The notes below the pieces were generated by a model. The model searched no databases, was not told where the DNA came from, and saw only the letters and a program-made list of their open reading frames with translations. A stretch of 64,000 bases of DNA, taken from NCBI GenBank assembly GCA_943736015.1, contig OX031068.1:24064296-24128295 (forward strand), written 5' to 3'. The position numbers were made by a program, and so were the translations under genes. This DNA comes from Tridacna crocea (taxonomy: Eukaryota > Mollusca > Bivalvia > Cardiida > Cardiidae). Below are positions 1-64,000 of the stretch, piece after piece. Every line of letters starts with the position of its first letter. Within the stretch, counting starts at the first letter, position 1.

Positions 1-275
1 AAGGAAATACCTTTGGAAGCGATTTAAAATCCAAATAAACCAGAATGGGAAGAAGTCAATAAACAATGGGAATTTTACGAAAAAAAAAAATAACCCGAAA
101 TACCCCTTATGGTTTATTCAACCAATGACGCAGTCGTTTCTTATCTTCATTACAGTGTGGTTTTTTTTTTGTTTCTCAGTAGATATGCCAAATAATATAT
201 GTGTTGAGATAAGTGCGATATATAAGCATGCCATGATTTATGTTATATACACAATGTTATATACATTTGAGTCAC
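1..275. other. no feature seen
   Basis: AT-rich, with short A and T runs. No open frame, repeat family or splice signal stands out. Confidence 0.5.
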
Positions 276-425
276 GGTCGGGCAAAAGGGGGGCTTAATT
301 CAATGCATCTGCAAAAAGTATCGACTCAGGTCAGCCTGCGCAGTCTGCGCAGGCTGGCCTGTGTCGAAATATTTTTTCTTTTAATTTCTGTTGATTTTTT
401 GCATATCTGAGGACCATTCTACCGC
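276..425 (+). repeat. GCAGGCTGGCC-type short repeat
   Basis: Contains the small palindrome GCCTGCGCAGTCTGCGCAGGC with flanks (AAGTATCGACTCAGGTCAGC, GACCATTCTACC) shared with 45880-46000, 47395-47550 and 51865-52045. Unclassified interspersed repeat. Confidence 0.55.
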
Positions 426-513
426 ACGAATCAGCAGTTTGTTAGACAAAATGCATTAGATAAATCCATACTTATGTGATGACTTGCTTGGTGGAATGTG
501 TCACGGAGATTTA

Positions 514-715
514 TAAACTCATTACCAAACGACAAATTTATAGACTGGTCCAAATTGAAAGCAGTTGCAGAAGACACAATAAATGTGACTGAACAACCGA
601 AATTTTATTTGGTAAGGATGGAAAACATTGTGGAAAAAGGAGAAAATGCTGGTAACCAAACTATAAGCATTTGCAGACGACAAATTCAATGTGGGGCTGA
701 ATCAAAGGACTTAAC
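514..715 (-). mobile_element. HP-A copy, mosaic
   Basis: Left half and left hairpin arm are present. Instead of the right arm a second copy of the GCATTTGCAGACGACAA segment follows, so the hairpin cannot form. Confidence 0.65.
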
Positions 716-732
716 TTTATAAGGACAGAACA

Positions 733-930
733 GGGTCCGTATTCACAAACCGTTCTTAAGAATATTCTTAGACTTATTCTTCAGAATTTTGTCAATGTGA
801 AAGTAACAAGAATTCTGATTGGCTAAACCAATTGGTTTAGCCAATCAGAAGTCCTGTTACTTTCACAGTCAGAAAATCTTGAAGATTTAGACAAAGAGCG
901 TTCTTAAGAATGGTTGGTGAGTACGGACCC
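733..930 (+). mobile_element. HP-B MITE
   Basis: GGGTCCGTATTCAC... to ...GTACGGACCC. The two halves are inverse along their whole length around GGCTAAACCAATTGGTTTAGCC. Confidence 0.85.
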
Positions 931-1042
931 AAATTGAGGGAACATGAGAAAAATGCTGGCTATCAGAGTTTTTTTTCCCTGTTCTCAAAATGGTTTTAAA
1001 GGTCCCTGCAGTTTACATGTATACCGCATTCGGCTTATTAAT

Positions 1043-1271
1043 TTAACCCATTAACACACAATCCCTACTTTTGATGCCCCTGAGAAAGAAGCCTTTAGAA
1101 AACATTGTGGGAAAAGGAGAAAATGCTGGTAAGCAGCATTTTGTCCTTTTCCCACAATGTTTTCTACCCTGCTTAAAACAAATTTCCATTTTTGGGTTAC
1201 GTTTATTTAGTCGACGGCAAGTGCTTTCAATTCGGACAAGTCTAAAATTTTGTCGTTTGGTAAAGAATTAA
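1043..1271 (+). mobile_element. HP-A copy, A1
   Basis: TTAACCCATTAACACACAAT to AAGAATTAA. The hairpin apex changed to GGTAAGC, weakening the loop-closing pairs. Confidence 0.85.
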
Positions 1272-1452
1272 AAAGTGTTTTACGCGGTTTTGAATATTAT
1301 GGAAACCATGCCACGGCAAAGACATATTTTCTTATCTCTACCCTTAATTAATACAGTCTTTTACTAAGGTTCTAAAATGCTTTCCCCATGGACAATCCCA
1401 TAAAGATGACATCACCGCAGCTTAGGATCGAATCAAGGACCTCTAAAATCTT

Positions 1453-1682
1453 TTAACCCTTTACCACATGGTAAAATTTTAGGCCTATCCAAACTGAAAG
1501 CATTTGTAGACGACAATTTCAAAGTGGCTCAAATGGCGCATTTTTACTTTGATAGGGTAGAAAAAACTTTGTGGGAAAAGGAGAAAATGCTGGTTACCAG
1601 CATTTTTTCCTTTTCCCACAATGTTTTCAAAAGGCATCTTCCTAAGGGTCGTTAAAAGGCGTCATTGTCTGGTGAAGGTTTA
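1453..1682 (-). mobile_element. HP-A copy, A1
   Basis: TTAACCCTTTACCACATGG start, full hairpin with GGTTACC apex, ends AAGGTTTAA. Confidence 0.85.
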
Positions 1683-1779
1683 ATCTTTTTCCTGCTTGTT
1701 AAGTAAAATAAAAACTTCCTAGTCGATAGTAAAAATCAAAATGTTGTCATTTTTATAGTATATCTTGGAGGAAAAATAT

Positions 1780-1893
1780 CTTCATATCGGATAGAGTGTA
1801 TCTAAGATCAGACTGCACGTTCTGTGCAGTCTGATCTTGATCTACACTATCCGCAAAATGGTTCTTGAGTCGCGCTTCGCAGCCTAATGGTAA
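1780..1893 (+). mobile_element. HP-C copy, partial
   Basis: Palindrome AAGATCAGACTGCACGTTC/inverse followed by the ATCCGCAAAATGGTTCTTGA tail. The 5' part of the element is absent. Confidence 0.65.
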
Positions 1894-2176
1894 TCCTGGG
1901 TGTATAAATTTGCACTTGTGATCGAGTATATTGGTCCATTGTATATTCGAACTTAAAACCTATTCACTCAGGGTATATAGGGTTGCCTAGGTGTCTATTG
2001 GTCTAATATATCTTAAAATAGAGGTCTTTATGTGAAAATATTTGCTTTTCTGTTCAAAATTCAATAACAACTGCTATAAAAACTCTATTTAAATAATCGA
2101 AATGGAATATCAATAGACTAAGTGGGGTCGTGTGAATTTTTATCCTTTTTAAGTCGCTATGCAAAATGTTAGCTGA

Positions 2177-2937: not shown

Positions 2938-3119
2938 ACCAAACGACAAAATTATGGACTTGTCCAACTTTGAAAGCATTTGCAGACGACAAAATAAAGG
3001 TGAATCAAAAATTATTATTTTTTTTCGGAAAGGGTAGGAAACGTTGTGTGAAAAGGAGAAAATGATGTTTTCAAAGGCTTTCTTTCGTCAAAAGTCGGGA
3101 TTATGAGGTAAAGAGTTAA
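2938..3119 (-). mobile_element. HP-A copy lacking right hairpin arm
   Basis: Intact TTAA ends. The left arm AAAAGGAGAAAATGATG runs straight into the outer GTTTTCAAAGGC, an internal deletion of the distal arm. Confidence 0.8.
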
Positions 3120-3202
3120 AGCTTGGTGCTAATCAACGTTTTCCTATAGTGTTCACAATGTCTTCTCTTCGCAGGAAAATTGAAAAAAAAAGCACTTCGA
3201 AT

Positions 3203-3314
3203 CGTCCTTATAGATCAAAGATCAGACTAACAGTTCTCTGCACTCTGATCTTGATCTACATCACCCACAATATATTTAGGTACAATGAATTGTATTTAGC
3301 ATTCTAAGGGTTAA
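3203..3314 (+). mobile_element. HP-C copy, partial
   Basis: AAGATCAGACTAACAGTTCTC / GATCTTGATCTACAT palindrome, diverged, ending ATTCTAAGGGTTAA. Confidence 0.6.
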
Positions 3315-3916: not shown

Positions 3917-4344
3917 TTAACCCTTTACAAAACAACAAAATTTTAGATCGCTCTAAATTAAAAGCACTTGCAGATGACCAGGGTCCGTATTCACCAACCA
4001 TTCTCAAGAACGTTCATAGTCTTATTCTTCAAGATTTTCTGACAGTAAAAGTAACAAAACATCTGATTGGCTAAACCATTCGGTTTAGCCAATCAGATGT
4101 TCTGTTACTTTCACAATCACAAAATTCTGAAGAATAAGACTAAGAATATTCTTGAGAATGGTTGGTGAATACGGACCCACATCAATGTAACTCAAAGACT
4201 GAAATTTGTTTCCAGTAGGGTAGAAAACATTGTGCGAAAAGGAGAAAATGCTGGTTATCAGCATTTTCTCCTTTTCGCACAATGTTTTCAAAAGGCTTCT
4301 ATCTCAGGATCGTAAAAACCAGGGATTGTTTGGTAAAGGGTTGA
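3917..4344 (-). mobile_element. HP-A copy interrupted by HP-B
   Basis: Left 64 bp (TTAACCCTTTACAAAACAAC... GCAGATGACCA), then HP-B, then the rest of the element with intact hairpin and end GGTAAAGGGTTGA. The element is older than the HP-B insertion. Confidence 0.85.
3981..4178 (+). mobile_element. HP-B MITE nested in HP-A
   Basis: GGGTCCGTATTCACCAACCA to GAATACGGACCC, near-perfect 198-bp palindrome. Confidence 0.9.
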
Positions 4345-4899: not shown

Positions 4900-5615
4900 C
4901 TGCGCATGTCATTTTCTTCGAAGATTCGACTGTCTTATATGACACATCACTAGCCTCGAATGCGGACAGATTGTAATATTACGCTCCATAAGTAGCAATG
5001 TAGAAAATAGCTTTTATCGATACGTTTGAGGAGAAATGAGACCTGCTTTAGCTCCAGATTTCTCTAAACTGGTGATCATAGCTGAGTGAATTGCACGAGG
5101 CAGCGTTTTACTGAGTAAACGTTTATTTCAGTTTGATATTCAAAGTAACGGTTGTCGCATAGAAATGTAGTCCGGCTCTGTACCCAGGATGCCCAAATTA
5201 GATAGATGAGTATCTATAGAATGCCATCTAGCGGAAGATAATGGCGACGACGCAGACTTGCATTATCTCCCGCTAGATGGCATTCTAAATACACATCTAT
5301 CTAATTTGGGCATCCTGGGTACAGAACCGAACCACTTTCCTACGCGACAACCGTTACCTTGAATTTCAAACTAAAATAAACGTTTACTCAATAAAACGCT
5401 ACCTCGTGCGATTCACTCAGCTATCAGCAGTTTAGAGAAATCTGGGGCTAAAACAGACCTGATTTTTCCTCAAACGTACTAAATTGATAAAAACTATTTT
5501 CTCCATTGCTACTTTATAGCGCGTATTCCTAAAGTCTGTCCGATATCGCTGATAGTGATGCGTCATATAAGACAGGTCGAATCTTCGAAGAATATGACAT
5601 GCGCAGACAACGCGC
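4900..5615. mobile_element. 0.7-kb foldback element
   Basis: Two arms of about 340 bp, inverse to each other (GTTGTCTGCGCATGTC at left, GACATGCGCAGACAAC at right), meet at a 17-bp loop near 5244-5260. A partial relative without the partner arm is at 26490-26755. No transposase; non-autonomous foldback DNA element. Confidence 0.75.
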
Positions 5616-6664: not shown

Positions 6665-6965
6665 TGGGACAATGTAGACCCAAGATCAGACTACGCGTTC
6701 TCTGCTGTCTGATCTTAACCCTTTCCCAAACAACAAACTTTTGGACTAGACCAAATTGAAAGCATTTGCAGACGAAAATTCAACTCTTACTGAAAAGATG
6801 ATTTCTGTCTATGACAGGGTAGAAAACATTGTGGAAAAAGGAGAAAATGCTGGTTACCCACAATGTTTTCAAAAGGCTACTATTCCAGATTCGTTAAAAC
6901 CTGGAATTGTTTGGGAAAGGGTTAATCTACACTGTCCACACAAAGTCAGCGAGTCTCACTTACAT
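6665..6965 (+). mobile_element. HP-C copy split by HP-A at TTAA
   Basis: GATCAGACTACGCGTTC...TCTGATC is followed by the HP-A element, then TCTACACTGTCCACACAAAG. Removing HP-A and one TTAA restores the family text GATCTTAATCTACACTGTCC. Confidence 0.8.
6715..6925 (-). mobile_element. HP-A copy nested in HP-C, hairpin shortened
   Basis: TTAACCCTTTCCCAAACAAC to GTTTGGGAAAGGGTTAA; 15-bp perfect terminal inverted repeat after TTAA. The right hairpin arm has lost its inner half. Confidence 0.88.
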
Positions 6966-9565: not shown

Positions 9566-9838
9566 AGTTGGTTGGTTGGTTGTATTGGAGTTTAACGCCA
9601 CTTTAACAGCTATGGTCATATCATGGCGGTCGGTGACGCACATGTGTTTCCTGGCTTTCTCATACCAGTACTAACACTACTTTCTTTCCAAAGCCACCGA
9701 CTACTTTTCTCACTTGCTTCAGCAGAGGTGAGAGGCGAAAATACGCCGGAAAGAAAGTTTGCCTCAACCGGGTATCGAACTCACAACCACCAGGTTATGA
9801 ATCCGACACGCTCACCACTGAGCCACCCGGGCGGGCAT
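9566..9838 (-). mobile_element. tRNA-derived SINE, family 1
   Basis: On the minus strand the head reads GCCCGGGTGGCTCAGTGGTG (A box) and GTTCGATACCC (B box), then a body that also appears at 42476-42752. The tail is GTTAAACTCCAATACAACC. Confidence 0.8.
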
Positions 9839-11533: not shown

Positions 11534-11762
11534 TTAAGCCTTTCCCAAACAATCCCTGGTTTTTACGGGTCTGGAATAGTAGCCTTTTGAAAACATTGTG
11601 GGAAACGGAGAAAATGCTGGTAACCAGCATTTTCTCCTTTTCCCACAATGTTTTCTACCCTACTCAAAACAAATTTTAATTTTTGAGTTACCTTTATTTT
11701 GTTGTCTGCAAGTGCTTTCAATTTGGACAAGTCTAAAATTTTGTCGTTTGGTAAAGGGCTAA
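11534..11762 (+). mobile_element. HP-A copy, A1
   Basis: TTAAGCCTTTCCCAAACAAT to TTTGGTAAAGGGCTAA, complete hairpin. Confidence 0.85.
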
Positions 11763-12277
11763 CCTGCTTTTATTCCAGTGTTCAACCAAATAATCTACAC
11801 GGTAAAGTTAACCTTTTAAATTTTGCACAAACATCATGAATTTGCACAGTTTAGATCTTATATAATGCTTTTTTCGTTATAATTTTGCTTGTTTTTTCTT
11901 TTTGACACAATGCTTAACCAAATAATCTACATAAACTTGGAACAGTTAAATTTCGTACAAAACATTACAAATTAAATCCTTTTTATTTCATGCTTTCCGG
12001 TAGGATATCGAGAAATAGCAGTGAAAATATTTTTCGATCTTAATCTGGTACCACCCGTGGAAATACCGATTTTCACGTTATTGTTGCCTAGGTAAATTGC
12101 GCGTGCCTAACGACCAGATGGGAAATATGACGTCATATACCTTACATTTCTCCGGCTTGACGTAACGTTGCTATGCGGGAAGGGTACGCCACGGGGAATA
12201 AGGGAAAAGAACTGTACTGAATTTTGATAAAGCTCCTCCCAGAAATGGTTAAAAGCATAAAATAAATAGAATATTTG

Positions 12278-12422
12278 TTTATTTCGGTGAAAGATCGAAA
12301 TTTATTTCATCTCGTGAACACCATCGGTAATATTTTCACTCGTGGCTGCGCCTCTCGTGAAAATATTTCCGATGATGTCCACTCGATGAAATAAATTTCG
12401 ATCTTTCACCGAAATAAACAAA
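12278..12422. repeat. 145-bp inverted repeat
   Basis: ATTTCGGTGAAAGATCGAAA and its inverse flank a short loop around GTGGCTGCGCCTC. Flanking DNA (12000-12550) may be part of the same unclassified element. Confidence 0.7.
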
Positions 12423-12745
12423 TATCCTCTATATATCAAAGCAAACTCGAACGAAATTCGTCGATTCTTTCTCGCACAAAATTCGGAATTGTAGTCGGAA
12501 GGAAGATACATGTACGCTCATGTATCCTTATTTTAGTCTGGTCGTTTCGGTGCACATTTGTTTCAAGTTCCACAATATCTATCTAAAATCTAACTAGAAC
12601 TGTTACTGGCCTACAAATATACCGACTGGTTACGTTATGACTGGATCAAGAAAAAAATCAAAGGGCCTTAACTTCTACAGTACTTAGATATCCAATCAAA
12701 GTCAAAGTGAAAGTGCACAAGTTTATTATGATAGGAAGATTTCCA

Positions 12746-14515: not shown

Positions 14516-15150
14516 TTAACCCTTTACCGAACAATTCCTGGCTTTTACGACCCTGAGACAGAAGCCTTTTGAAAACATTGTGGGAAAAGCAGAAAATGCT
14601 GGTAACCAGCATTTTCTCCTTTTCCCACAACGTTTTCTACCGTGCTTAACCCTTTACCCCACAAAGCATTTCTATGGTATCTCTAATTGACCCTAAATAA
14701 CAGCAAGGATGAAGTCTTTTCTTATGTGTGTATATGACATCTTTTGATAGCATAGAAAACATTGCAACAAAAGGTGAAATTGCTCGTCACGAGCAATTTC
14801 ACCTTTTGTCACAATGTTTTCCAAAGGCTTCTACAAGCAATACGTCGAAATGAGTATCTGTGGAGTAAAGGGTTAAGACAAGCTTTCAATTCTGGCTCTG
14901 AGTCTGGTTCAGTCCATACTCAAGAAAGATTGAGTTTCATGTTCAGTTGAGTACGATCTCAAACTCAAGATTTTTTATAGGCACAAAATGCTGAGTCAGA
15001 CTCAGGGTTGAGCAAGAAAACGCTCCTTGAGCATGAGAATGTACTAAAGGAAGTTTTAAAAGCACGGGCCCTGGAGTTAGGTTCATTTTGTCGTCCGCAA
15101 GTGCTTTCAGTTTGGACTAGTCTAGAATTTGTTGTTTGGAAAAGGGTAAA
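14516..15150 (+). mobile_element. HP-A copy interrupted by A3 copy and other DNA
   Basis: The left half with perfect hairpin stops at CTACCGTGC; the A3 element follows; the 3' end (TTTTGTCGTCCGCAAGTGCT to GGAAAAGGGTAAA) reappears only at 15088. About 200 bp of unrelated sequence also separates them. Confidence 0.65.
14646..14876 (-). mobile_element. HP-A copy, A3, nested
   Basis: TTAACCCTTTACCCCACAAA to GTGGAGTAAAGGGTTAA with stem GGTGAAATTGCTCG / inverse. Inserted at the TTAA of the host element's TGCTTAA. Confidence 0.87.
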
Positions 15151-16158: not shown

Positions 16159-16227
16159 CCGGCCTTATCCTGCTACATGAAAGAAATGAAACTTTCAAGC
16201 CAACAGTTAAAATAAACAAACTGATGT

Positions 16228-16456
16228 TTAACCCTTTACCTCATAATGCATTTCTATGTTATCTCTAATTGACCCTAAGTAACAGCAAGGATGAAGCCGT
16301 TTCTTATGTGTATATGACACCTTTCGATAGTGTAGAAAACATTGTGGCAAAAGGTGAAATTGCTCGTAACGAGCAATTTCACCTTTTGCCAAAATGTTTT
16401 CCAAAGGCTCCTAAAAGCAATGCGTAGAAATGAGTATCTATGGAGTAAAGGGTTAA
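16228..16456 (-). mobile_element. HP-A copy, A3
   Basis: TTAACCCTTTACCTCATAAT to ATGGAGTAAAGGGTTAA, stem GGTGAAATTGCTCGTAACG. Confidence 0.9.
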
Positions 16457-18640: not shown

Positions 18641-19990
18641 GAGGTATTGAAACATTGGAATCAAATTTATAATTTTGCCGAGCAATTTTCAAAAGGTCAC
18701 CTGTAAAAGTCATTTCGAAATCTGACCATCAGTTTCAAAAAGAAGAATTTTTAAGAATTCTTCATTTCTGTATAAGAGCAAGTAGCCCCCATCCACGAGA
18801 GCCATGTTTCTTGATGGATCAAAATTTACGAACAAGTTTTGAAAAGGGTCACCCAAGGAACATCTCTCTGAAATTATTTCAAAATCTGACCTGGGGTTTC
18901 AGAGAAAGAGAATTTTAAAGAATTTCATCATGTCCGTTTAGTGCAAGTAGCCCCCATTCACAAGAGCCATGTTTCTTGAGGGACCAAAATTATGTGTACA
19001 GCTTTTGGAAAGGGTCACCCAAGGAACATCTCTGTCACATTATTTTAAAATCTGACCACAGGTTTCAAAGAAGAAGAATTTTCAAGAATTTCTTCATTTC
19101 CATATAATGCAAGTAGCCCCCATTCACTAGAGCCATGTTTCTTGGCCAATCAAAATTTCACGAACAATTTTAGAAAAGGGTCACCCAAGGAACATCTCTG
19201 TGAAATTATTTCAAAATCTGTCCAGCCATTTCAGAGAAGAAGAATTTTCAAGAATTTCTTCATTTCTGTATAGTCCAAGAAGCCCCTATTCACCAGAGCC
19301 ATATTTCTTGACCAATCAAAATTTCGCGAACAACTTTTTAAAAGGGTAACCCATGGAACAAGTCTGTGAAATTATTTCAAAATCTAACCAGCTGTTTCAG
19401 AGAAGAAGATTTTTTAAGAATTTCTTCATTTCTGTATAGTGCAAGAAGCCCCCATTCACCAGAGCCATATTTCTTGACCAATCAAAATTTCGCGAACAAT
19501 TTTTTAAAAGGGTCACCCAAGGAACAAATCTGTGAAATTATTTCAAAATCTGACCAGCGGTTTCAGAGAAGAAGATTTTTTAAGAATTCCTTCATTTCTG
19601 TATAGTGCAAGAAGCCCCCATTCACCAGAGCCACATTTTTTGACGGATCAAAATTTCACGAACAATTTTTGAAAAGGGTCACCCAAGGAACAAATCTGTG
19701 AAATTATTCCAAAATCCGACCAGCGGTTTCAGAGCAGAAGATTTTTAAAGAATTTGCTAAAAAATTCCATTTGGTTGCCATGGCAACCAGAGTTTTTGAT
19801 GGAATCAAATTCTGTGAACAATTTTTAAAGAGGACCTCCCAAGGGACATTCCTGCCAAGTTTGGTCCAAATCTGCCCAGCAGTTTAGGAGGAGTTGATGT
19901 TTAAAGGATTGTTGACGACGGACGACGCACGACGGACACCGGGTGATCCTAAAAGCTCCCCTTGAGCACGTTGTGCTCAGGTGAGCTGAA
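18548..19990 (+). mobile_element. long element with six ~166-bp tandem units
   Basis: Left motif GAGGGCCAATATGGCCCT, right motif GAGCACGTTGTGCTC then GGTGAGCTGAAA. The internal marker AGTAGCCCCCATTCAC recurs near 18781, 18947, 19112, 19278, 19444 and 19610. No transposase. A reverse-orientation relative lies at 53535-55376. Confidence 0.75.
18610..18641. repeat. poly-T tract
   Basis: About 30 T in a row within the left end of the tandem element. Confidence 0.9.
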
Positions 19991-22638: not shown

Positions 22639-22866
22639 TTAACTCTTTACCACACAATCCTGACTTTTAACGACCCTGTGAAAGAAGCCTTTTGAAAACA
22701 TTGTGGGAAAAGGAGAAAATGCTGGTAACCAGCATTTTCTCCTTTTCCCACAATGTTTTCTACCCTTCCCAAAACAAATTTCAGTTCTTCAGTCACTTTT
22801 ATCTTGTCGTCTGCAAATGCTTTCAATTTAGACCAGTCTAAAATTTTGTCGTTCAGTAAAGAGTTA
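22639..22866 (+). mobile_element. HP-A copy, A1, near consensus
   Basis: TTAACTCTTTACCACACAAT to GTTCAGTAAAGAGTTAA with a perfect 33-bp-arm hairpin. Confidence 0.92.
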
Positions 22867-22951
22867 AGACACAACTGAGCTAACAAACAGACTTATCTCA
22901 ATTAACAGACTTACGAGTATTATTTCGCAGAGTTGAATCCCATATATTGTG

Positions 22952-23180
22952 TTAACTCCTTACTCCATAGATATTCATTTCTACGCATTGCTTGTAGGAG
23001 CCTTTGGAAAACATTGTGGCAAAAGGTGAAATTGCTCGTGATGACCAATTTCACTTTTGGCCACAATGTTTTCTACACTATCAAAAGCTGTCATATACAC
23101 AAAAGAAACGGCTTCATCCTTGCTGTTGTTTAGGAACAATTAGAGATACCATAGAAATGCCTTATGGGGTAACGGGTTAA
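22952..23180 (+). mobile_element. HP-A copy, A3
   Basis: TTAACTCCTTACTCCATAGA to ATGGGGTAACGGGTTAA; stem GGTGAAATTGCTCG with one arm altered (GATGACCAATTTC). Confidence 0.88.
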
Positions 23181-23201
23181 CCCAGGACTTGAGAAGTAAT
23201 G

Positions 23202-25690: not shown

Positions 25691-25918
25691 TTAACCCTTT
25701 ACTCCATAGATACTAATTTCTACGCATTACTTGTAGGAGCCTTCGGAAAACACTGTGGCAAAAGGTGAAATGGCTCATGACAAGCAGTTTCACATTTTGT
25801 CACAATGTTTTCTATACTATCAACAGGTGTCATATAGATACAAGAAACAGCTTTATCCTTGCTGTTATTTAGGGTCATTTAGAGATACCATAGAAATGCA
25901 TTGTGGGGTAAAGGGTTA
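25691..25918 (+). mobile_element. HP-A copy, A3, in COMMD2 intron
   Basis: TTAACCCTTTACTCCATAGA to TGGGGTAAAGGGTTAA; stem arms have drifted (GGTGAAATGGCTCATGACAA). Confidence 0.88.
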
Positions 25919-25939
25919 AGGATTCAGATTTAGACCTAC

Positions 25940-27699: not shown

Positions 27700-27929
27700 T
27701 TAACCCATTACCACACAATCCCTACTTCTGACGGCTCTGAGGAAGAAGCCTTTTGAAAACACTGTAGAAAAAGGAGAAAATGCTGGTAACCAGCATTTTC
27801 TCCGTTTTCCCACTGTGTTTTCTACCCTTCCCAGAACAAATTTCAATTTTTCAGTCACCTTTATTTTGTCCTCTGCAAATACTTTCAATTTGAACCAGTC
27901 TAAAATTTTGTCACGTGGTAATGAGTTAA
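27700..27929 (+). mobile_element. HP-A copy, A1
   Basis: TTAACCCATTACCACACAAT to CGTGGTAATGAGTTAA; shares its terminal TTAA with the next copy. Confidence 0.9.
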
Positions 27930-28149
27930 ACTCTCTACCACAAGATTAAAATCTCAGACTTTTCCAAATTGAAAGCATCTGAAGATGACAATTTAAATGT
28001 TGCTCAAATGGTGTAATGAATCTTTGAATAGGTAGAAAATATTGAGGGAAAGGAAAAAATGCTGTTTACCAGCATTTTCTCTTTTTCCTTAATTTTTTTA
28101 ACGAGTTCTCAAAGGTTGTTAAAACCAGGTATTGTATAGTAAAGTGTTG
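27926..28149 (-). mobile_element. HP-A copy, diverged
   Basis: Starts at the TTAA that ends the previous copy, and ends ATAGTAAAGTGTTGA. Confidence 0.75.
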
Positions 28150-33781: not shown

Positions 33782-33846
33782 TACAAAAATAATGTTGAAA
33801 GGGGTGTGTAACACTTAACTAACAAACTTTTCGAAAACACTTATAG

Positions 33847-34036
33847 GATTCCCAAGGGAACTCTTGCTGCCAATTGTGAACTAGAACTCCAAGACCTAAT
33901 GAAGCAGATTGATAAACTCCAGGCAGAGAAGAAGAAGGAATGGGAACGAGAAAAGGAAGGACTTCAGTCTCGACTCGGGATTAGGGAAAAGGAATGTCAG
34001 ATGCAAAAATCAACTCTAGAACAGAAACATAAAGAG
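33847..34036 (+). CDS. CEP63: CEP63/DEUP1-like, coding exon 2
   Basis: 190 nt, residues 17-80, acceptor cttatAG, donor GAG|GTATGT. Key stretch CELELQDLMKQIDKLQAEKK then EW and IREKE-Q; vertebrate CEP63 has CEAELQELMKQID and IREQEL at the same spacing. This motif identifies the family. CEP63 and its paralogue DEUP1 recruit CEP152 and so PLK4 to the parent centriole or deuterosome; a mollusc is expected to have one pro-orthologue. The whole product is predicted coiled coil rich in E, K and Q, without membrane segments. Confidence 0.92.
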
Positions 34037-34055
34037 GTATGTTCATCAGTGACCT

Positions 34056-34258
34056 TTAACCTATACCAAACAATTCTTGGTTTTTAGGACTTTCTGGAAG
34101 AAAGCTGTTTAAAATATTTTAGAAGAATGTGGGAAAATAAGTTTTAATTTTTTTTTTAATATTTTCTATTTTTTGAAAGGTCAAATGCCAACTATGTGAG
34201 CCACATTTTGAATTGTACTCTGCAGATGTTTACAGTTTTTGTAAGGTTTAACATTTTT
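34056..34258 (+). mobile_element. HP-A copy, decayed
   Basis: TTAACCTATACCAAACAATT start, 19 bp after the exon 2 donor; hairpin lost. Confidence 0.55.
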
Positions 34259-35093: not shown

Positions 35094-35322
35094 TTAACCC
35101 ATTACCACACAATCCCTACTTTTGACGCCCCTGAGAAAGAAGCCTTTTGAAAACACTATGGGAAAAGGAGAAAATGCTGGTAACCAGTATTTTCTCCTTT
35201 TCCCACAGTGTTTTCTACCCTTCCCAGAACAAATTTCGATTTTTGAGTTACGTTCATTTTGTCGTCTGCACATGCTTTCAATTTGGACTAGTCTAAAATT
35301 TTGTCGTGTGGTAAAGGGTTAA
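35094..35322 (+). mobile_element. HP-A copy, A1
   Basis: TTAACCCATTACCACACAAT to GTGTGGTAAAGGGTTAA; hairpin intact except CAGTATTT. Confidence 0.9.
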
Positions 35323-35633
35323 CTTAGATGGGTAATATATTAAAGGCTTTTGAAATATTTTTTTTTTTTGCATAACTTTCTTCATTTGTATCATGCCATT
35401 TTTCAGCGGTTTGTTTATATCCCATAGTAAATGTACCATGTTTTGTGGTCTTTTCAAGCCCTAAGCTTCTTTGCCATGAAAACAAAAATTTAAAAAAAAA
35501 ATGAATTTTAAAGGCAGATTTCTTAAAATTTGCCATAACAAATGACAGGTGTAACAATGCACTTGTTGTCATTCATTATTTGTTATCATCTTAGTACAGT
35601 GTAATTACTTTGGACTTTATATATCCTACCCAG

Positions 35634-36128: not shown

Positions 36129-36310
36129 ATGCATTTGAATTTTAATCATGATACCATTTAAAAGTATGGAAATTAATGAGAAGATGACAATCTGTCATTG
36201 TATAGATGCCCAAATTATCAAAGAAGTTATAAGTAAAATGGCAAGACTGATGTTTTGTATGGAGCTGTTCAATAGTGGGATAGTGCCTGTTATTACAGAA
36301 GATATTTACT

Positions 36311-36539
36311 TTAACTCATTACCACACGAGAAAATTTTGGACTGGTCCAAATTGAAAGCATTTGCAGACAACAAAATAAAGGTGACTGAAAAATAGAAAT
36401 TTGCTCTGGGAAGGGTAGAAAACACTGTGGGAAAAGGAGAAAATGCTGGTTACCAGCATTTTCTCCTTTTCCCACAGTGTTTTCAAAAGGCTTCTTTCTC
36501 AGGGGCGTCAAAAGTAGGGATTGATTGGTAATGGTTTAA
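36311..36539 (-). mobile_element. HP-A copy, A1
   Basis: TTAACTCATTACCACACGAG to TTGGTAATGGTTTAA, perfect hairpin; opposite in orientation to 35900-36128 in the same intron. Confidence 0.9.
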
Positions 36540-37710: not shown

Positions 37711-37941
37711 TTAACCCTTTACTCCATAGATACTCATTTTGACGCATCAACAACAGACAGCTTTTGAAAACATTGTGGGAAAAGGAGAAATTGCTCGTAA
37801 CGAGCAATTTCTCCTTTTCCCACAATGTTTTTCACTCAATCAGATAATTGTTTCCCCATTTGTCCATGTTTTTGACATCATATTTTTATTTGCTGCTGAA
37901 TCGGAAGAGCCTAAAATTAGCATAATGAGGTAAAGGGTTAA
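37711..37941 (+). mobile_element. HP-A copy, A2 stem with A3-type left end
   Basis: Left end TTAACCCTTTACTCCATAGA (A3 type) but stem GGAGAAATTGCTCGTAACGA (A2). A natural hybrid of subtypes. Confidence 0.88.
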
Positions 37942-38165
37942 AAGACCAATACCATGACCACTGAGCTATATAGATATCTCCTTAACGCAGTTGTTAGGTA
38001 TTGTATTTAAATCAGGAAGAAGCTATGCATGGAGTGGTCTCCCATAATATGAGTACAAGCCTATAAACTATCAAAACCCCAGCAAAGATAAAGGGATTAT
38101 CTTTTCCCTCAGCCAAATTACTGTTGAAATAGGGATAAAACATTTTTTAAACAAACAAAGATTTC

Positions 38166-40945: not shown

Positions 40946-41150
40946 TTAACCCATTACCACACAATCCCAGCCTTTTGAAAACATTGTGGGAAAAGGAGAA
41001 AATGCTGGTAACCAGCATTTTCTCCTTTTCCCACTATGTTTTCTACCCTTTCCAAATCAATTTTAAATTTTTGATTCACATTTATTTTGTCATCTGCCAA
41101 TGCTTTCAATTTGGACAAGTCCAAAATTTTGTTGTGTGGTAAAGAGTTAA
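40946..41150 (+). mobile_element. HP-A copy, A1
   Basis: TTAACCCATTACCACACAAT joined early to CCCAGCCTTTTGAAAAC (about 25 bp lost); shares its last TTAA with the next copy. Confidence 0.87.
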
Positions 41151-41850: not shown

Positions 41851-42085
41851 TTAACCCTTTACTCCATAGATACTCATTTCTATGCATTGATTGTAGGAGT
41901 TTTTGGAAAACATTGTGACAAAAGGTGAAATTGCTCGTGACGAGCAATTTCACCTTTTGTCACAAAGTTTTCTATGCTTTCAAGATGTGTCAACAGTCAT
42001 ATACACATAAGAAACAGCTTCATCCTTGCTGTTATTTATGGTCAATTAGAGATACCATAGAAATACCTTATGGGGTAAAGGGTTA
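41851..42085 (+). mobile_element. HP-A copy, A3, near consensus
   Basis: TTAACCCTTTACTCCATAGA to ATGGGGTAAAGGGTTAA, perfect stem GGTGAAATTGCTCGTGACGA. Confidence 0.92.
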
Positions 42086-42127
42086 ATGTAGTAATGTTCA
42101 AGTTGCTAGAGGGTAAGAGCTTACGGA

Positions 42128-43822: not shown

Positions 43823-44060
43823 CGCCTAGGTAGCTTAGCGGTTTGTGTATCGGACTTGTGTCCTGGAGGTTGTGAGTCAGATACTTGGTTAAAGCAAACT
43901 TTCTTGCTGGCGATTCTTCGCCTCTCACCTCTGATGCATAGTAAGAATGTAGTCAGTGACTTGGACAGAAAATTGTGTCAGTACTGGTGTGAGAAAGTCA
44001 GGAAACACATGTGTAGGTGCTCTGACCACGGTGATATGACCTAAGCTGTTAAAACAGCAT
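43823..44060 (+). mobile_element. tRNA-derived SINE, family 1 relative
   Basis: CGCCTAGGTAGCTTAGCGGT and GGTTGTGAGTCAGATACTTG (A and B boxes), body TCAGTACTGGTGTGAGAAAG shared with 42476. It runs directly into an HP-A copy. Confidence 0.72.
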
Positions 44061-44275
44061 TAACCCATTACCAAACGACAAAATTTTAGACTGGTCCAAG
44101 ACTGGACAAAATAAAAGTGACTGAAAAATTGAAATTTGTTCTGTGAAGGGTAGAAAACATTGTGGGAAAAGGAGAAAATGCTAGTTACCAGCATTTTCTC
44201 CTTTTCCCACAATGTTTTCTAAAGGCTTCTTTCTCAGGGGTGTCAAAAGAAGGGATTGTGTGGTAATGGGTCAAA
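44060..44275 (-). mobile_element. HP-A copy, A1
   Basis: TTAACCCATTACCAAACGAC with a shortened left half, perfect hairpin, end TGGTAATGGGTCAA. Confidence 0.85.
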
Positions 44276-46087: not shown

Positions 46088-46538
46088 TTAATGCTTTACC
46101 ACACAACAAAATTGTAGACTTTTCCAGACTGAGAAAGTTTGCAGACAACAATTAACTCTTTACCAGGTGACAAAATTTTACCCCTGTCCAAATTGAAAGC
46201 GTTTGCAGAGGACAATTTCAATATGGCTGAAATCGTGCATGTTTATTGATGGGGTTGAAATCACCTAGGGAAAAGGAGAAAATGCTGTTTATCAGCAATT
46301 TCTCCTTTTCCCACAATGTTTTTAAAATTGTTCTTTCCAAGGTTTGTCAAAAGTCGACATTGTGTGTTAACGGATTAAGTGTGGCTCAAGCAATGAAATT
46401 CGTCTTTAATTGGATAGAAAACATCATGGGAAAAGGAGAAAATGCTGGGTACCAGCTTTTTCTCCTTTTTCCTCAATGTTTTCAGGAAGCTTCTTTTTCA
46501 AGGTCCTTAAAACTCGGGATTGTGTGGTATAGGGTTAA
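46088..46538 (-). mobile_element. HP-A copy split by another HP-A copy
   Basis: Left 64 bp up to GCAGACAACAATTAA and right part from GTGTGGCTCAAGCAATG to ATAGGGTTAA flank the inner copy. Deleting it with one TTAA restores a continuous element. Confidence 0.85.
46152..46378 (-). mobile_element. HP-A copy, A1, nested at TTAA
   Basis: TTAACTCTTTACCAGGTGAC to GTGTTAACGGATTAA; apex GCTGTTTATCAGC. Confidence 0.85.
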
Positions 46539-50510: not shown

Positions 50511-50633
50511 TTAACCCTTTACCACACGGCAAAATTTTAGACGTATCCAAATTAACCCTTTACCTCACGGCAAAATTTTAGACGTATCCAAATTAACCCT
50601 TTACCACACGGCAAAATTTTAGACATATCCAAA
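50511..50633 (-). repeat. three 41-bp tandem copies of the HP-A terminus
   Basis: TTAACCCTTTACCNCACGGC at 50511, 50552 and 50593, each running to ACRTATCCAAA; almost identical. No hairpin. Starts 16 bp after the end of coding exon 9. Confidence 0.92.
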
Positions 50634-50862
50634 TTAACCCTTTACCACACAATGACAACTTTTAAATCCCCTGGGAAAGAAGCCATTTAAAAACTTTGTG
50701 GGAAAAGGAGAAAATGCTGGTAACTAGCATTTTCTCATTTTCCCACAAAGTTTTTTGCACTATCAAAGCAAAATTGCACCATTTGAGCCACTTTAAAATT
50801 GTCGTCTGCAGATGCTTTCAATTTGGACCAGTCTATAATTTTGTAGTTTGGTAAAGAGTTAA
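50634..50862 (+). mobile_element. HP-A copy, A1
   Basis: TTAACCCTTTACCACACAAT to TAGTTTGGTAAAGAGTTAA; directly follows the tandem termini. Confidence 0.87.
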
Positions 50863-53534: not shown

Positions 53535-55376
53535 AGCTCTGCTGAGCACAACGTGCTCAAGGGGAGCTATTAGAATCACCCGGTGTCTGTCGTGCATTGT
53601 CAGTAATTCTTTAAACATCAACTCCTCCTAAACCGCTGGGCCAATTTGGACCAAACTTGGCTGGAATGTTTCTTGGGAGGTCCGTCCTCTTGAAAGATTA
53701 TTCACAGAATTTGATTTCGTCAAAAATTCTGGTTGCCATGCAGGCCTCCTAGTGAAACTTTTAAAACCTTTAAAAACCTTTAATTTCAGAGCAAACCTTT
53801 AAAACCTTTACATTTCCCCAGAAAACCTTTAAAACGCCAAAATAGCCTGTAATTCTCACTCAAAACTTTATATTTGCTCTGACTGGTTGCCGTGCTAGCT
53901 TAAAGCAAGCAATGGATTTTGTTCTGCAGGAGCTATGTATGATATAGATATGCAGAGAAAATAGGTATACACATTAAATAAGATATGTATTATATTGCAT
54001 AATTCAAACAGTATATAACATCAAAAAATGACTTTGGTATGACTGTGGGTTTAATAAAGAAATGAGAACTTCGACGAAAATAGCCTTTATTTACTCTTTA
54101 TTTTTTCATATTTTACACTAAAGGGCCTTTATTTTCATACATTGGAGCCTTTATAAAAACCTTTATTTTTGTTTTGGCCTGCTAGGAGGCCTGGCCATGG
54201 CAACCAAATTGAATTTTCTAGGAAATTCGTTGGGTCAGATTTTGAAATAATTGCACAGAAATGTTCCTTGGGTGACCCTTTTCAAAAATTGTTCATGAAA
54301 TTTTGATCCGTCAAGAAACATGGCTCTAGTGAATGGTGGCTACTTGCACTATACAGAAATGAAGGAATTCTTAAAAATTATACTTCTCTAAAACCGCTGG
54401 TCAGATTTTGAAATAGTTTCACACAAATGTTACTTGGATGACCCTTTTCAAAAATGTTCACAAAATTTTGATCCGTCAAGAATTATGGCTCTGGTGAATG
54501 GGGGCTACTTGCACTATAGAGAAATGAAGAAATTCTTAAACATTCTTCTTCTCTGAAACTGCTGGTCAGAATTTGAAATAATTTCACAGAGATGTTCCTT
54601 GGATGACCCTTTTCAAAAAGTATACATGAAATTTTGATCTGTCAAAAACCATGGCTCTGGTGAATGGGGGCTGCTTGGACTATATAGAAATGAAGAAATT
54701 CTTAAAAACTCTTCTTCTGTGAAACTGCTGGTCAGATTTTGAATCATTTCACAGAAGTGTTCCTTGGATGACCCTTTTCAAAAGTGTTCGCAAAATTTTG
54801 ATCCGTCAAGAATCATGGCTCTGGTGAATGGGGGCTACTTGCACTATAGGGAAATAAAGAAATTCTTAAACATTTTTCTTCTCTGAAACCACTGGTCAGA
54901 ATTTGAAATAATTTCACAGAGGTGTTCCTTGGATGACCCTTTTCAAAAATTGTTTGCGAAATTTTGATCCGTCAAGAATTACGGCTCTGGTGAATGCGGG
55001 CTACTTTCACTACACGGAAATGAAGAAATTCTTAAAAACTCTTCTGCTCTGAAACTGCTGGTCAGATTTGAAATAATTTCACAGAAATGTTCCTTTGATG
55101 ACCCTTTTCAAAATTGTTCGCGAAATTTTGATAGGTCAAGAAACATGGCTCTGGTGAATGGTGGCTACTTGCACTATAGGGAAATGAAGAAATTCCTAAA
55201 AATTCTTCTTTTCTGAAACTGCTGATCAGATTTTGGAAGGACTTTTACAGGTGACCTTTTGAAAATTGCTTGGCAAAATAATGAATTTGTTTCCAGTGTT
55301 TCAATACCTCAAAAAAAATGGCTATGGTCTTCTCAAAAATTCAAGTGAGCGATTCAGGGCAATCTTGGCCCTCTTG
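53535..55376 (-). mobile_element. long element with six ~164-bp tandem units, reverse
   Basis: Reverse of the 18.5-kb type: starts at AGCTCTGCTGAGCACAACGTG and ends GATTCAGGGCAATCTTGGCC then CTCTTG. GTGAATGGGGGCTACTTGCA recurs near 54332, 54496, 54662, 54826, 54990 and 55156. In the CEP63 intron after exon 11; carries a nested element. Confidence 0.75.
53735..54199. mobile_element. 453-bp nested element, 12-bp TIRs, 6-bp duplication
   Basis: Element 53741-54193 starts CAGGCCTCCTAG and ends CTAGGAGGCCTG (perfect inverse), with GCCATG on each side (53735-53740 and 54194-54199). The interior has AAACCTTTAAAACCTTT-type runs at one end and CCTTTATTTT runs at the other. No coding sequence. Confidence 0.83.
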
Positions 55377-60055: not shown

Positions 60056-60140
60056 ATATTGTCGGTTTGCTTCCAAAACCTTGTAACTACAGCTTGTAAC
60101 AAGCTGTAGTTACGAGGTTTTGGAAGCAAACCGACAATAT
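60056..60140. repeat. 85-bp near-perfect inverted repeat
   Basis: ATATTGTCGGTTTGCTTCCA ... meets its inverse at AGCTTGTAACAAGCT. Unclassified palindrome in the intron before exon 13. Confidence 0.85.
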
Positions 60141-60387
60141 CATTTTTGTAGCTGCCAGCCCTGCTAGCAGAGTTCTTGCAATCATTGTGGGAAGAGGTTT
60201 TTTTACACGCAGCTAGCTTCTTTTGCCAGGCTTTACCCTTCTTTCAGTTAATTTTCCTTCATATGATTCATAATGGCTAATGGCATACCTAAAAATATCT
60301 TGTCTGGCAATCATTGTCCACATGACTTGTGAATTCGGCATAAATTTTCATAGTTATATGATACTGTACAAAAGTATTATTATTCAG

Positions 60388-60522
60388 AAAGCAGATGTAG
60401 ACAGACTGGAGGTAGAGTTATCTGAAGTGAAGAGCCAGTTACTTACAGCTCAGGGAAAACTGTTCTCCATGACAAGTGGTCATGAGTCTGAAGTAGAAGC
60501 TATGAAGCAACAGTTAGAAAAG
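60388..60522 (+). CDS. CEP63: CEP63/DEUP1-like, coding exon 13
   Basis: 135 nt, residues 422-466, phase 0/0, acceptor tattattcAG, donor AAG|GTTAGT. KADVDRLEVELSEVKSQLLT then MTSGHESEVEAMKQQLEK. Leucine-spaced coiled coil. Confidence 0.82.
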
Positions 60523-60901
60523 GTTAGTTCAAAGTCTTTTTTTTTTTTTTGTATGATTATACTGCAAAGAAATTTCTTGTGATCTGATTAGATAATATGC
60601 CTCAAACATATAATATATTACGTACACTGGCAAACCAATGTAAAAGCAGTTTCCCTTTTGGGAGTTCGACGCAACAACCAAAATGGCAGCATTGATCAAG
60701 ATTTACATCATGATTATGCGCCGAGCTGCATGTTTTAGCATGTATTACCAAGGTTTCAGTGACGTCAGTTCCCAGTGACTCATTAAATTGGGGCACGCGG
60801 AAGGGAAATCCTACTTCGTCCGCGTACTCATTTTTAAAAAGAAAAAGTTAAAATTCGCTTAACATAAATGGAATGGTGAAACTGTGCAGTAAAATAGATT
60901 T

Positions 60902-61053: not shown

Positions 61054-61282
61054 TTAACCCATTACCACACAATCCCTACTTTTGACGCCCCTGAGAAGGA
61101 AGCCTTTAGAAAACATTGTGGGAAAAGGAGAAAATGCTGGTAACCAGCATTTTCTCCTTTTCCCACAGTGTTTTCTATCCTTCACAAAGCAAATTTCAAA
61201 TTTTCAGTCACTTTGATTTTGTCGTCTGCAAATGCTTTCAATTTGGACCAGTCTAAAATATTGTCGTTTGGTAATGGGTTAA
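61054..61282 (+). mobile_element. HP-A copy, A1, near consensus
   Basis: TTAACCCATTACCACACAAT to GTTTGGTAATGGGTTAA, perfect hairpin. Confidence 0.92.
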
Positions 61283-61521
61283 GCCCACTTGTAGTAAGTA
61301 TGGCATACTTTTGTTTACTGCAGCTTCTTGTCTGTATGTCTGTGTGCTGGATTTGTTTTAGTCTGATTTCTGTATTTATGGAGCAATTTTCCAATGATTG
61401 AGTAGAAGTATCACAGAGGACATTAAATTTTATTCACTGAGATTGGAAATACATGCCATATTTTGTTCTTGAACTTGCTTTTGAAGACAAGTTGGTTTAA
61501 AGGTACAACCATAACAAACAA

Positions 61522-61605: not shown

Positions 61606-61662
61606 ATAATGAGGACGGTTTCAATATTACTGATATGAATGTGCTTGCCTGTTATAGAAGAG

Positions 61663-61783
61663 TTAACATCGTTGGAAAAGGAGAAAATGCTGGATACCAG
61701 CCTTGTCTCATTTTCCCACAATGTTTTCAAAAGGCTGCTTCCTTGAGGTCGTTAAAAGTTGGGATTGTGTGGTAAAGGATTAA
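61663..61783 (-). mobile_element. HP-A copy, left half missing
   Basis: Hairpin GGAGAAAATGCTGGATACCA with a mismatched right arm; end GTGTGGTAAAGGATTAA. Confidence 0.75.
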
Positions 61784-62004: not shown

Positions 62005-62047
62005 GAACTTCTGTTAAATAAAGCCTTTCACTTTTATCCTATTTTAG

Positions 62048-62170
62048 CTGACATCAGAACTACACAACAAAAGTAGCCACAGTCAAACATTGACAGATAA
62101 GGTAGACTCTTTAGATCAGCAGATGAGGCTGGAGAAGGAGGAGCTTGTGAAAAAAGAGGCGGAGCTAAAG
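62048..62170 (+). CDS. CEP63: CEP63/DEUP1-like, coding exon 14
   Basis: 123 nt, residues 467-507, phase 0/0, acceptor tcctattttAG, donor AAG|GTAGAT. LTSELHNKSSHSQTLTDKVD then MRLEKEELVKKEAELK. LTSELH resembles the LTQELH of vertebrate CEP63. Confidence 0.82.
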
Positions 62171-62615
62171 GTAGATTTACAGGATTGGCCAATAAGTTCA
62201 ATACATTCTAAGTTATAGAACATTTTACTTTCTTGTATTTGACAGCAAGGAAAACATTGCTGGAAAACTAGCTCTATGTTGCTTGCAGGTTTTTTTTGTC
62301 AAATTATGTTCCCAGACAAAATGGGGCATCAAAGGGGATTTTGATCCAAAATCATTGAGTGTGGACCGAGGGAATTGGAGGACTGGAAATTTAATGTTTT
62401 GTAATGAAATTTTGTAAGGATCTAATTTTGTTTGAATTTGCTCAATTAATTGTTTTGTCATTGAAAGGATTTAGGAGAAAATACTGTTTAGAAAGGAAAA
62501 TGTGGGGAGAAATATCAGTTTTATCTTTCATTTCCCATACACAGAGTTGCTAAAAATAGGGATTATGAATGAAAAGGTTCAAGAGAATTCTATGCTCATT
62601 TCTTTGATGTAACAG

Positions 62616-62771
62616 GTGGCCAATGCCCAGATTGATGCCTTGAGGCTAGAGAACAGACATTTACGTCAGACTATCATTCAACAAACACAAGTCAATCTTG
62701 ATTACAATGAAAAGGAATCAAAGATGAGTGAACTCCAAGAGTCTTATCAAAATACAATCAAAGCACTAGAG
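62616..62771 (+). CDS. CEP63: CEP63/DEUP1-like, coding exon 15
   Basis: 156 nt, residues 508-559, phase 0/0, acceptor tgtaacAG, donor GAG|GTAAAT. IDALRLENRHLRQTII followed by SELQESYQNTIKALE matches LESLKLENRHLSEMV and ADLQENYIEALNKL of CEP63. This second diagnostic block confirms that exons from 32.3 to 62.8 kb belong to one gene. Confidence 0.92.
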
Positions 62772-62800
62772 GTAAATCTCTGATATCCAGTATTTTTAGT

Positions 62801-63029
62801 TTAACTCTTTACTACACGATCCTGACTTTTAACGACCCTGAGAAAGATACCTATAGAAAACATTGAGGGAAAAGGAGAAAATGCTGGTAACTAGCATTCT
62901 CTCCTTTTCCCACAATATTTTCTACCCTATCAAAGTCAGAGATTATTCTTATTACAAAGATTTAATTTGTTGTCTGCAGATGATTTGAATTTGTTCCAGT
63001 CCAAAAATTTGTCATTCGGTACAGAGTTA
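62801..63029 (+). mobile_element. HP-A copy, A1
   Basis: TTAACTCTTTACTACACGAT to CATTCGGTACAGAGTTA; starts 29 bp after coding exon 15. Confidence 0.85.
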
Positions 63030-63180
63030 CCTCTTTACCAAATGACAAAGTTTTGGACTTGACCAATTTCATAGCACTCACAGACAACAAATTAAAACTT
63101 GTTAATATGACGATTTCTGACTTAAATATGGTTTCTTTCTCAGGGTTGTTAAAAGTTGGAACTGTGTGGCAAAGAGTTAA
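63026..63180 (-). mobile_element. HP-A copy with the hairpin deleted
   Basis: GTTACCTCTTTACCAAATGA to GTGTGGCAAAGAGTTAA; GACTTAAATATGG replaces the hairpin. Confidence 0.75.
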
Positions 63181-63187
63181 CTGTTTT

Positions 63188-63415
63188 TTAACCCTTTACT
63201 CCATAGATACTCATTTTAATGCATTGCTTGTAGGAGCCTTTGGAAAACATTGTGGTAAAAGGTGAAATTGCTCGTGACGAGCAATTTCACCTTTTGCCAC
63301 AATGTTATCTACACTGTCAAAAGGTGTCATATACACATGAGAAATGGCTTCATCCTTGCTCTTATTTAGGGTCAATTAGAGATACCATAGAAAAGCCTTA
63401 TGGGGTAAAGGGTTA
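63188..63415 (+). mobile_element. HP-A copy, A3, near consensus
   Basis: TTAACCCTTTACTCCATAGA to ATGGGGTAAAGGGTTAA; perfect stem GGTGAAATTGCTCGTGACGA. Confidence 0.92.
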
Positions 63416-63708
63416 AGATATCATTAAATTGTCTAAGGCCCTATAGTTGTCTTGTGTCATTGCAGTGTTCAAACTTTGACATTTTCTGATATGATTTCTG
63501 ATTACTGAAAATATTTACCACTAACTCGAGCTAATTGTTAAATACCTAAAAGGGAACCCATGCAAATAAGGTAAACTGGTCCTGCATGCAGCAATATATA
63601 AATCCACTTGAATTCAGTGTTGTACCCAACCATGCTAAATGACTTTGTTATTTCACTTTAATGTATTGACATAAAAGGTAGTTTAAACACAGAATGCAAA
63701 TTTTTTAT

Positions 63709-63937
63709 TTAACCCATTACCACACAATCCCTACTTTTGACGCCCCTGAGAAAGAGGCCTTTTGAAAACACTGTGGGAAAAGGAGAAAATGCTGGTAACC
63801 AGCATTTTCTCCTTTTCCTACAGTGTTTTCTACCCTTCCCAGAACAAATTTCAATTTTTCAGTCACCTTTATTTTGTCGTCTGCAAATGCTTTCAATTTG
63901 GACCAGTCTAAAATTTTCTTGTGTGGTAAAGAGTTAA
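63709..63937 (+). mobile_element. HP-A copy, A1, near consensus
   Basis: TTAACCCATTACCACACAAT to GTGTGGTAAAGAGTTAA. Confidence 0.92.
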
Positions 63938-63990
63938 ACAGACAGTTATGATTTGTAACAAATGATTTGTAAAACTTTTATTTTGGACAG

Positions 63991-64000
63991 CAGTTTGCTT
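63991..64000 (+). CDS. CEP63: probable start of CEP63/DEUP1-like exon 16 (cut by window edge)
   Basis: A good acceptor (ttttattttggacAG) leaves only CAGTTTGCTT before the edge, reading Gln-Phe-Ala in phase 0 as required after exon 15. The C-terminal part that binds CEP152 in vertebrates must lie beyond. Confidence 0.5.

Follow-up and report, generated by a model that had tools for sequence, protein, structure and literature searches.

The CMITEs of Acropora are the closest known system to HP-A, a family of short repeated elements that crowds a 64,000-base stretch of the genome of the bivalve Tridacna crocea (the window; C13:24064296-24128295 of a 1,048,827,098-base assembly of 31 contigs). 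These miniature inverted-repeat transposable elements (MITEs) resemble HP-A in their TTAA duplications, in terminal inverted repeats (TIRs) that start with CCC and in the occurrence of adjoining copies (PMC2872659). The TIRs begin with CCCTTT in five of the six CMITE families, the internal region is conserved between families more than the TIRs are, for which the authors proposed a role in transposition, and mobilisation is thought to be by piggyBac-like transposases (PMC2872659). The two systems differ in scale and in structure. CMITEs are ~100 bp long with ~1600 copies estimated in one species (PMC2872659), whereas HP-A is 229 bp long with about a million fragments estimated. The 60-bp CMITE internal consensus folds no better than shuffled sequences (-4.7 kcal/mol, z -0.65), whereas HP-A contains a palindrome with 32-bp arms. 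No clear common sequence was found: of 200 shuffles, 6 did at least as well as the CMITE 60-mer against subfamily A1 of HP-A, 134 against A2 and 102 against A3, a weak likeness at best for A1. A first-pass annotation of the window had regarded a conserved long hairpin as abnormal for piggyBac MITEs. The long hairpin is indeed unusual, but conserved internal regions have a precedent in CMITEs (PMC2872659), and HP-A brings to the idea of a role in transposition a much larger body of data and a defined structure.

Two other groups offer partial parallels. The T2-MITEs of Xenopus, assigned to Kolobok, are likewise an abundant and long-lived TTAA family, but their termini are AGGRR (PMC6004289), whereas those of HP-A start with CCC. 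The Pokey MITEs mPok1 and mPok2 of Daphnia (PMC4912750) belong to a family given as a member of the piggyBac superfamily, as we propose for HP-A.

We consider HP-A to be a non-autonomous piggyBac-type MITE in which the palindrome is a functional component of what moves rather than a passenger, and we give this reading a probability of about three in four; mobility is itself deduced from sequence. A nucleotide profile, seeded with four copies and iterated, identified 111 non-overlapping HP-A fragments in the window, 58 on the + strand and 53 on the - strand, covering 20,684 bp (32.3%). Joining five split pairs by eye leaves ~106 insertions. The 60 near-complete copies (from model position 1-3 to at least 227) are 193-240 bp long, with a median of 229 bp. 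The consensus measures 229 bp from TTAA to TTAA, with 221 bp between the two TTAA. Its ends form an imperfect TIR, and between them a palindrome with ~32-bp arms separates the short left shoulder from the longer right one. HP-A is thus short, non-coding, bounded by TIRs, even in length and present in many copies, as a MITE should be; no coding capacity was found in it, and no transposase appeared among the Pfam matches of the window's open reading frames (10 scanned of 41 listed). The first-pass annotation had described ~90 copies of a 210-240 bp element, close to 30% of the DNA, in both orientations. The abundance, size, share and orientations are borne out by these data; the count was too low. 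An exact 24-mer from the stem had no occurrence in the viral_contigs or genome_contigs collections, as expected for a eukaryotic repeat. A literature search by sequence strings and topics found no description of HP-A; most subscription papers, Repbase and Dfam were outside that search, and HP-A may already have an entry in a repeat catalogue.

The abundance of HP-A extends beyond the window. Twenty 10-kb stretches starting at round coordinates and spread over 16 contigs, which form a small (200 kb) and hand-picked rather than random sample, contained 209 fragments amounting to 18.2% of the DNA (bootstrap 95% confidence interval 12-25%), and the share was still 16.1% at E <= 1e-15. It ranged from 0 to 51% per stretch. 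One dinucleotide-shuffled copy of the sample gave no matches. By extrapolation, the genome-wide copy number that the first-pass annotation had wished to see counted is estimated at ~1.1 million fragments. If the sampled density holds, a single 229-bp non-coding DNA element makes up ~190 Mb (127-263 Mb) of 1.05 Gb, a share expected of the most successful retroposons.

The ends of HP-A and its insertion sites point to a TTAA target. In the window, 61 of 81 left ends and 62 of 80 right ends have TTAA where it is predicted, compared with at most 3 at any other offset within 20 bases. The 20 other stretches agree, with TTAA at this offset in 102 of 128 cases on the left and 91 of 121 on the right. 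TTAA lies (within 4 bases) at both ends of 42 of the 61 full copies and at a single end of the remaining 19. The first-pass claim of TTAA on both sides of all good copies was therefore too strong, although such ends are systematic and lie at a fixed offset. The TIR consensus sequences, TTAACCCTTTACCACACAA and TTAACTCTTTACCAAACGA, are alike at 16 of 19 positions, in agreement with the 15-20 bp reported at first pass. The choice of T or A at model position 8 agrees with that at position 222 of the other end in 52 of 58 informative copies (Fisher 8e-8); the choice of C or T at position 6 displays no such clear agreement between the ends. Several copies lie inside other repeats, where the flanks can be compared with an empty site. 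The joined flanks of the copy at 14646-14876 match unbroken HP-A1 copies, of which the one at 1113-1195 shows just one TTAA at the corresponding point; in this case and in that of the copy at 46152-46378, at least one unbroken relative carries a single TTAA at the insertion point. The joined flanks of 44060-44274 align to 9568-9652 over 88 bases (77%) with one TTAA. If joined, the flanks of 6714..6925 read TCTGATCTTAATCTACACT, and a copy of the interrupted hairpin repeat near 1804 reads TCTGATCTTGATCTACACT. Because the joined flanks match unbroken repeats with one TTAA, these comparisons establish insertion at TTAA with duplication of the target. For the copy at 40946-41150, which also lies within an HP-A1 copy, the relatives displayed have no TTAA at that point. 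Eight abutting HP-A pairs have one end site in common, which is TTAA in 6 and decayed in 2. A preference for inserting beside other HP-A copies was not shown, as a crude simulation of random TTAA insertion gave 16-29 abutting pairs.

HP-A falls into subfamilies with similar hairpins and different shoulders. A2, with six full copies in the window, is 86 and 92% like A1 at its ends and 86% in the hairpin; its shoulders are 53% (left) and 47% (right) like those of A1, the level of shuffled sequences. The A1 and A2 stems differ at four pairs, all four of which are compensated, and a fifth change lies just beyond the paired arms. A3 is represented in the window by one copy; in the other stretches, five fragments have A3 as their best match, and none of them is of full length. 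In the 362 kb examined, 281 hairpins have both flanks readable: 170 are A1 on both sides, 15 A2 on both sides and 1 A3 on both sides, 30 have no known shoulder, 58 have only one, 6 have right-type shoulders on both sides and 1 is an A1/A3 mix. No clear fourth shoulder family was found in these 362 kb. A conserved centre common to families with different flanks is also known from the CORE-SINE-like central domains of short interspersed elements (SINEs), although SINEs are retroposons and HP-A is a DNA element.

The palindrome is both strongly folded and paired beyond expectation. As DNA, the left 127 bases of the consensus fold into 32 pairs with a 3-base loop (-39.3 kcal/mol, z -13.4), close to the arms of roughly 33 bp described at first pass. 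The window has 71 short-loop palindromes scoring at least 15, 57 of them in HP-A, and one mononucleotide shuffle has none. Paired changes were counted in the 56 gap-free stems among 89 copies that span the stem, and such counts weigh sequences, not events. Thirteen of the 32 stem pairs have changed on both sides. Compensated cells number 48, compared with 9.5 +- 2.9 in shuffles and 8-16 with slid partners; the corresponding values are 58 versus 6-15 in a larger set (87 copies) and 72 versus 10-21 in a replicate (149 copies).

The stem also varies less than the rest of the element. Among 62 of the 70 near-full window copies (A1; 6 A2 copies and 2 singletons were left out), the divergence from the consensus is 6.5% in the stem, 12.5% in the TIRs and 19.2% and 19.8% in the shoulders. 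A replicate set of 89 of 97 copies from the other stretches, from which 8 with a shoulder divergence of at least 0.4 were left out, gave 6.0%, 10.8%, and 17.8% and 18.6%. Variants common to at least four copies occur at 0.024 per site in the stem and at 0.157 and 0.153 in the shoulders, and are thus about sixfold rarer in the stem. Single-copy variants are found at 0.0146 per site in the stem and at 0.0134 and 0.0088 in the shoulders; for rare variant types in 151 copies, counted in columns where one base reaches at least 88%, the values are 0.0085, and 0.0067 and 0.0058. A tree built from the shoulders only yields an internal-to-terminal ratio of changes of 0.10 (21/211) for the stem and 0.35 (262/747) for the shoulders (Fisher 4e-9), and in the replicate 0.16 (41/253) and 0.30 (295/991; p 5e-4). 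The stem is not depleted of rare, recent variants, so that the constraint appears to bear on spreading lineages, a view with which the tree counts agree only in part. The palindrome appears to behave as one of the parts that an element needs intact in order to yield copies. Unlike the shoulders, the stem is apparently fixed in the lineages that spread but not in the copies once inserted, and the old question of why some MITEs explode becomes directly testable through stem pairing.

The assembly encodes candidate partners for such an element. At least 118 sites in it match PF13843, the piggyBac transposase domain; many of the matches are almost complete, and their frames are free of stops. We examined 24 of these 118 loci with ~1.5 kb on each side, recognising whole elements by a tip match of 11 of 14 positions or, in a second set, 7 of 8 or 12 of 16. 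Ten of the 24 are whole TTAA...TTAA elements with tips starting TTAACCC; the ends of the other 14 were not resolved. Their tips are TTAACCCATTTATGCC (2883 bp), TTAACCCTTTCAGYGC (2693 bp), TTAACCCTCTAGA (3661 bp), TTAACCCTAGTCATGC (two elements of 2606 and 2610 bp, with a change in one tip) and TTAACCCTTTATATAC (five copies of 2764-2766 bp at L006, L007, L008, L029 and L030). The last five are 98.8-99.9% identical, suggesting recent movement, and one of them, the 2766-bp element at L007, breaks an HP-A copy with TTAA on both sides. The two most similar of 151 A1 copies are 3.9% apart, and the median pairwise difference is 23%; judged by this divergence, HP-A is older than the near-identical piggyBac copies. 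Like HP-A, the elements at L003, L007, L031, L032, L036 and L038 have TTAA on both sides and tips starting TTAACCC; unlike HP-A, they are 2.6-3.7 kb long and carry the transposase domain, and their tips diverge from about position 9-12. None of the six matches the HP-A shoulders in blastn at better than E 0.01, and only L038 matches the HP-A stem (E 2e-6 to 3e-10). The length of the HP-A TIR is within the 12-19 bp of piggyBac superfamily TIRs, which start with CC[CT]T (PMC2872659, PMC10175614); one coral autonomous element, AmiPB4, starts with CCCA (PMC2872659).

Several observations weigh against our reading of HP-A. The strict CC[CT]T start is present in only 40 of 120 intact HP-A ends. A full-length transposase gene with HP-A ends, which the first-pass annotation had suggested looking for, was not among the 10 whole elements (24 loci of 118, 14 with unresolved ends), none of which carries the TTACCA terminus of HP-A, and the ends resembling HP-A in the neighbourhood of L040, L042 and L043 are those of ordinary HP-A copies. 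For the palindrome, compensated changes confined to a single copy amount to 4 of 50 and 1 of 43, no more than in the slid controls (0 to 8), and the tree places compensation in 3 of 17-18 stem changes on internal branches and in 5-7 of ~200 on terminal ones. Since these counts are low, the compensation lies mainly between subfamilies and reflects few events. Changes on terminal branches are also significantly fewer per site in the stem (3.3, compared with ~6.0-6.2 in the shoulders; 4.0 and ~8.0 in the replicate), and in the window the stem value falls below every one of 10,000 column draws. Decay after insertion would not by itself produce such a deficit, which we tentatively put down to common shoulder variants misplaced on a poorly resolved tree.

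Four alternatives were considered. A functionless palindrome, in which hairpin-driven template switching in source copies rewrites one arm from the other and so maintains pairing without selection, is unlikely. One such event would yield a compensated change, and 13 pairs have changed on both sides, but template switching explains the pairing and not the far lower variation of the stem relative to the shoulders, and compensated changes confined to one inserted copy do not exceed the controls. For the latter reason, arm-to-arm conversion in inserted copies was rejected. Stem conservation might also be an effect of ascertainment, with subfamilies recruited through the hairpin, since the profile that recovered A2 and A3 contains it. 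This has little chance of being the explanation: within A1, profiles made from one shoulder alone recruit mostly copies with the palindrome (51/71 and 56/71), and a scan with the termini only found 134 ends, of which 16 lie outside known copies, compared with 10.9 per strand in shuffles. A host role for the hairpin, for instance as a small-RNA precursor or a chromatin element, is very unlikely. The strong fold would suit it, and an exon-like frame at 33812-34084 (+) with a Pfam CEP63 match (E 1.4e-15) suggests that many HP-A copies may be intronic, but rare stem variants in inserted copies are as frequent as elsewhere, and Rfam at gathering thresholds gave no match in the window. Membership in Kolobok, a TTAA-duplicating superfamily also present in molluscs and the presumed origin of large TTAA MITE families in Xenopus (PMC6004289), is least probable of all, as its termini are RR...YY (PMC9587614; RR also in PMC6004289), whereas an RR start is found in 0 of 120 intact HP-A ends and the looser YYC[AT] start in 99, and 7 of the 10 whole piggyBac elements have TTAACCC[AT]TT at both tips. 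Together with the nested TTAA duplications and the TTAACCC tips, these counts make the piggyBac pattern recognised at first pass (TTAA and CCC-starting ends) the best reading, and the ends and target of HP-A support assignment to piggyBac and not to Kolobok.

In the explanation we prefer, a piggyBac-superfamily transposase would move HP-A in trans, join it to TTAA and duplicate that site; the family of the transposase is suggested by the ends of HP-A and by the piggyBac elements in the same genome. Source lineages that lost stem pairing would not have spread, and inserted copies would decay freely, as the patterns of variation suggest. The likeliest mechanism for the palindrome, in our view, lies at the DNA level: it may extrude or bend, thereby bringing the two ends of a very short element together for a transposase dimer. 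Alternatively, it may offer a paired site that transposase dimers bind. A role at the DNA level is plausible because piggyBac and piggyBat transposases bind palindromic sites near the ends through paired C-terminal domains and bend DNA (PMC11707139). Such a mechanism is tentative, and the step to it from a constrained palindrome is a guess.

A broader and more doubtful proposal is that the palindrome may be a transferable core module of TTAA MITEs, carried by different elements between unrelated shoulders and giving a short element the mobility by which one family occupies roughly a fifth of a 1-Gb genome, with the L038 hairpin as its source or as another carrier. In L038, inverted blocks at 843-1153 and 3022-3274 flank the piggyBac transposase domain, and one of them contains a diverged HP hairpin (992-1059). 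This 310-bp block recurs in reverse within L038; once the hairpin is masked, it has no other match in the 362 kb. The hairpin may be either part of the transposon or an old insertion. L038 also has four 20-bp TGTTGCA...TGCAACA palindromes.

Table 1. HP-A features in the window (positions counted from the first base of the window)
Position	Strand	Feature	Basis
1043..1271	+	HP-A1 full copy	Profile
6714..6925	-	HP-A1 copy within a different hairpin repeat	By reading the sequence
11534..11763	+	HP-A1 full copy	Profile
14516..14644	+	Left part of HP-A1 copy, broken by HP-A2 copy	Profile, empty-site comparison
14645..14876	-	HP-A2 copy at internal TTAA of HP-A1 copy	Empty-site comparison
16227..16456	-	HP-A2 copy	Subfamily comparison
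22639..22868	+	HP-A1 full copy, 0 mismatches in 32 stem pairs	Profile, pairing
22952..23181	+	HP-A2 copy	Subfamily comparison
25691..25920	+	HP-A2 copy	Subfamily comparison
27700..28148	.	Head-to-head copy pair with one common TTAA	Profile, abutting-pair count
35094..35323	+	HP-A1 full copy	Profile
36310..36539	-	HP-A1 full copy	Profile
37711..37942	+	HP-A3, with an A2-like left end, a stem between those of A1 and A2, and a third type of right shoulder	Subfamily comparison
41851..42086	+	HP-A2 copy	Subfamily comparison
44059..44273	-	HP-A1 copy within another repeat, TTAA kept at one end only	Empty-site comparison
46088..46538	-	HP-A1 copy (46088-46153 + 46371-46538) broken at TTAA by HP-A1 copy 46152-46378	Profile, empty-site comparison
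61054..61283	+	HP-A1 full copy	Profile, 248.8 bits
63188..63417	+	HP-A2 copy	Subfamily comparison
63709..63938	+	HP-A1 full copy, best-scoring, TTAA to TTAA	Profile, 250.9 bits
63762..63832	+	Central hairpin of copy 63709..63938	Hairpin and pairing analysis

HP-A sequences also occur in tandem repeats. A 41-bp repeat at 50511-50650 (3.4 copies) is built from one HP-A end. L010 is a tandem array with a unit of ~1670 bp and an HP-like hairpin in each unit, at ~1312, 2980, 4651, 6323, 7989 and 9657, which may represent an HP-A copy that became part of a large satellite. A coiled-coil-looking frame at 60274-60579 in the window has no Pfam match above the cut-off. Two arrays of about six units of 165-166 bp each (18712-19755 and 54233-55235) occupy regions that lack HP-A (16.85-22.3 kb and 53.3-55.5 kb). 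A foldback repeat distinct from HP-A, GGGTCCGTATTCAC..., is present at 728-943 and 3976-4191 in copies that are 82% alike; by reading, the second breaks an HP-A copy and has borders without TTAA. A small repeat with a AAGATCAGACTGCA hairpin is found at 1804, 3214, 6678, 16511, 23894 and 33691, and is perfect at four of these six sites. Long palindromes outside HP-A are located at 12271-12425, 60056-60140 and 5073-5429.

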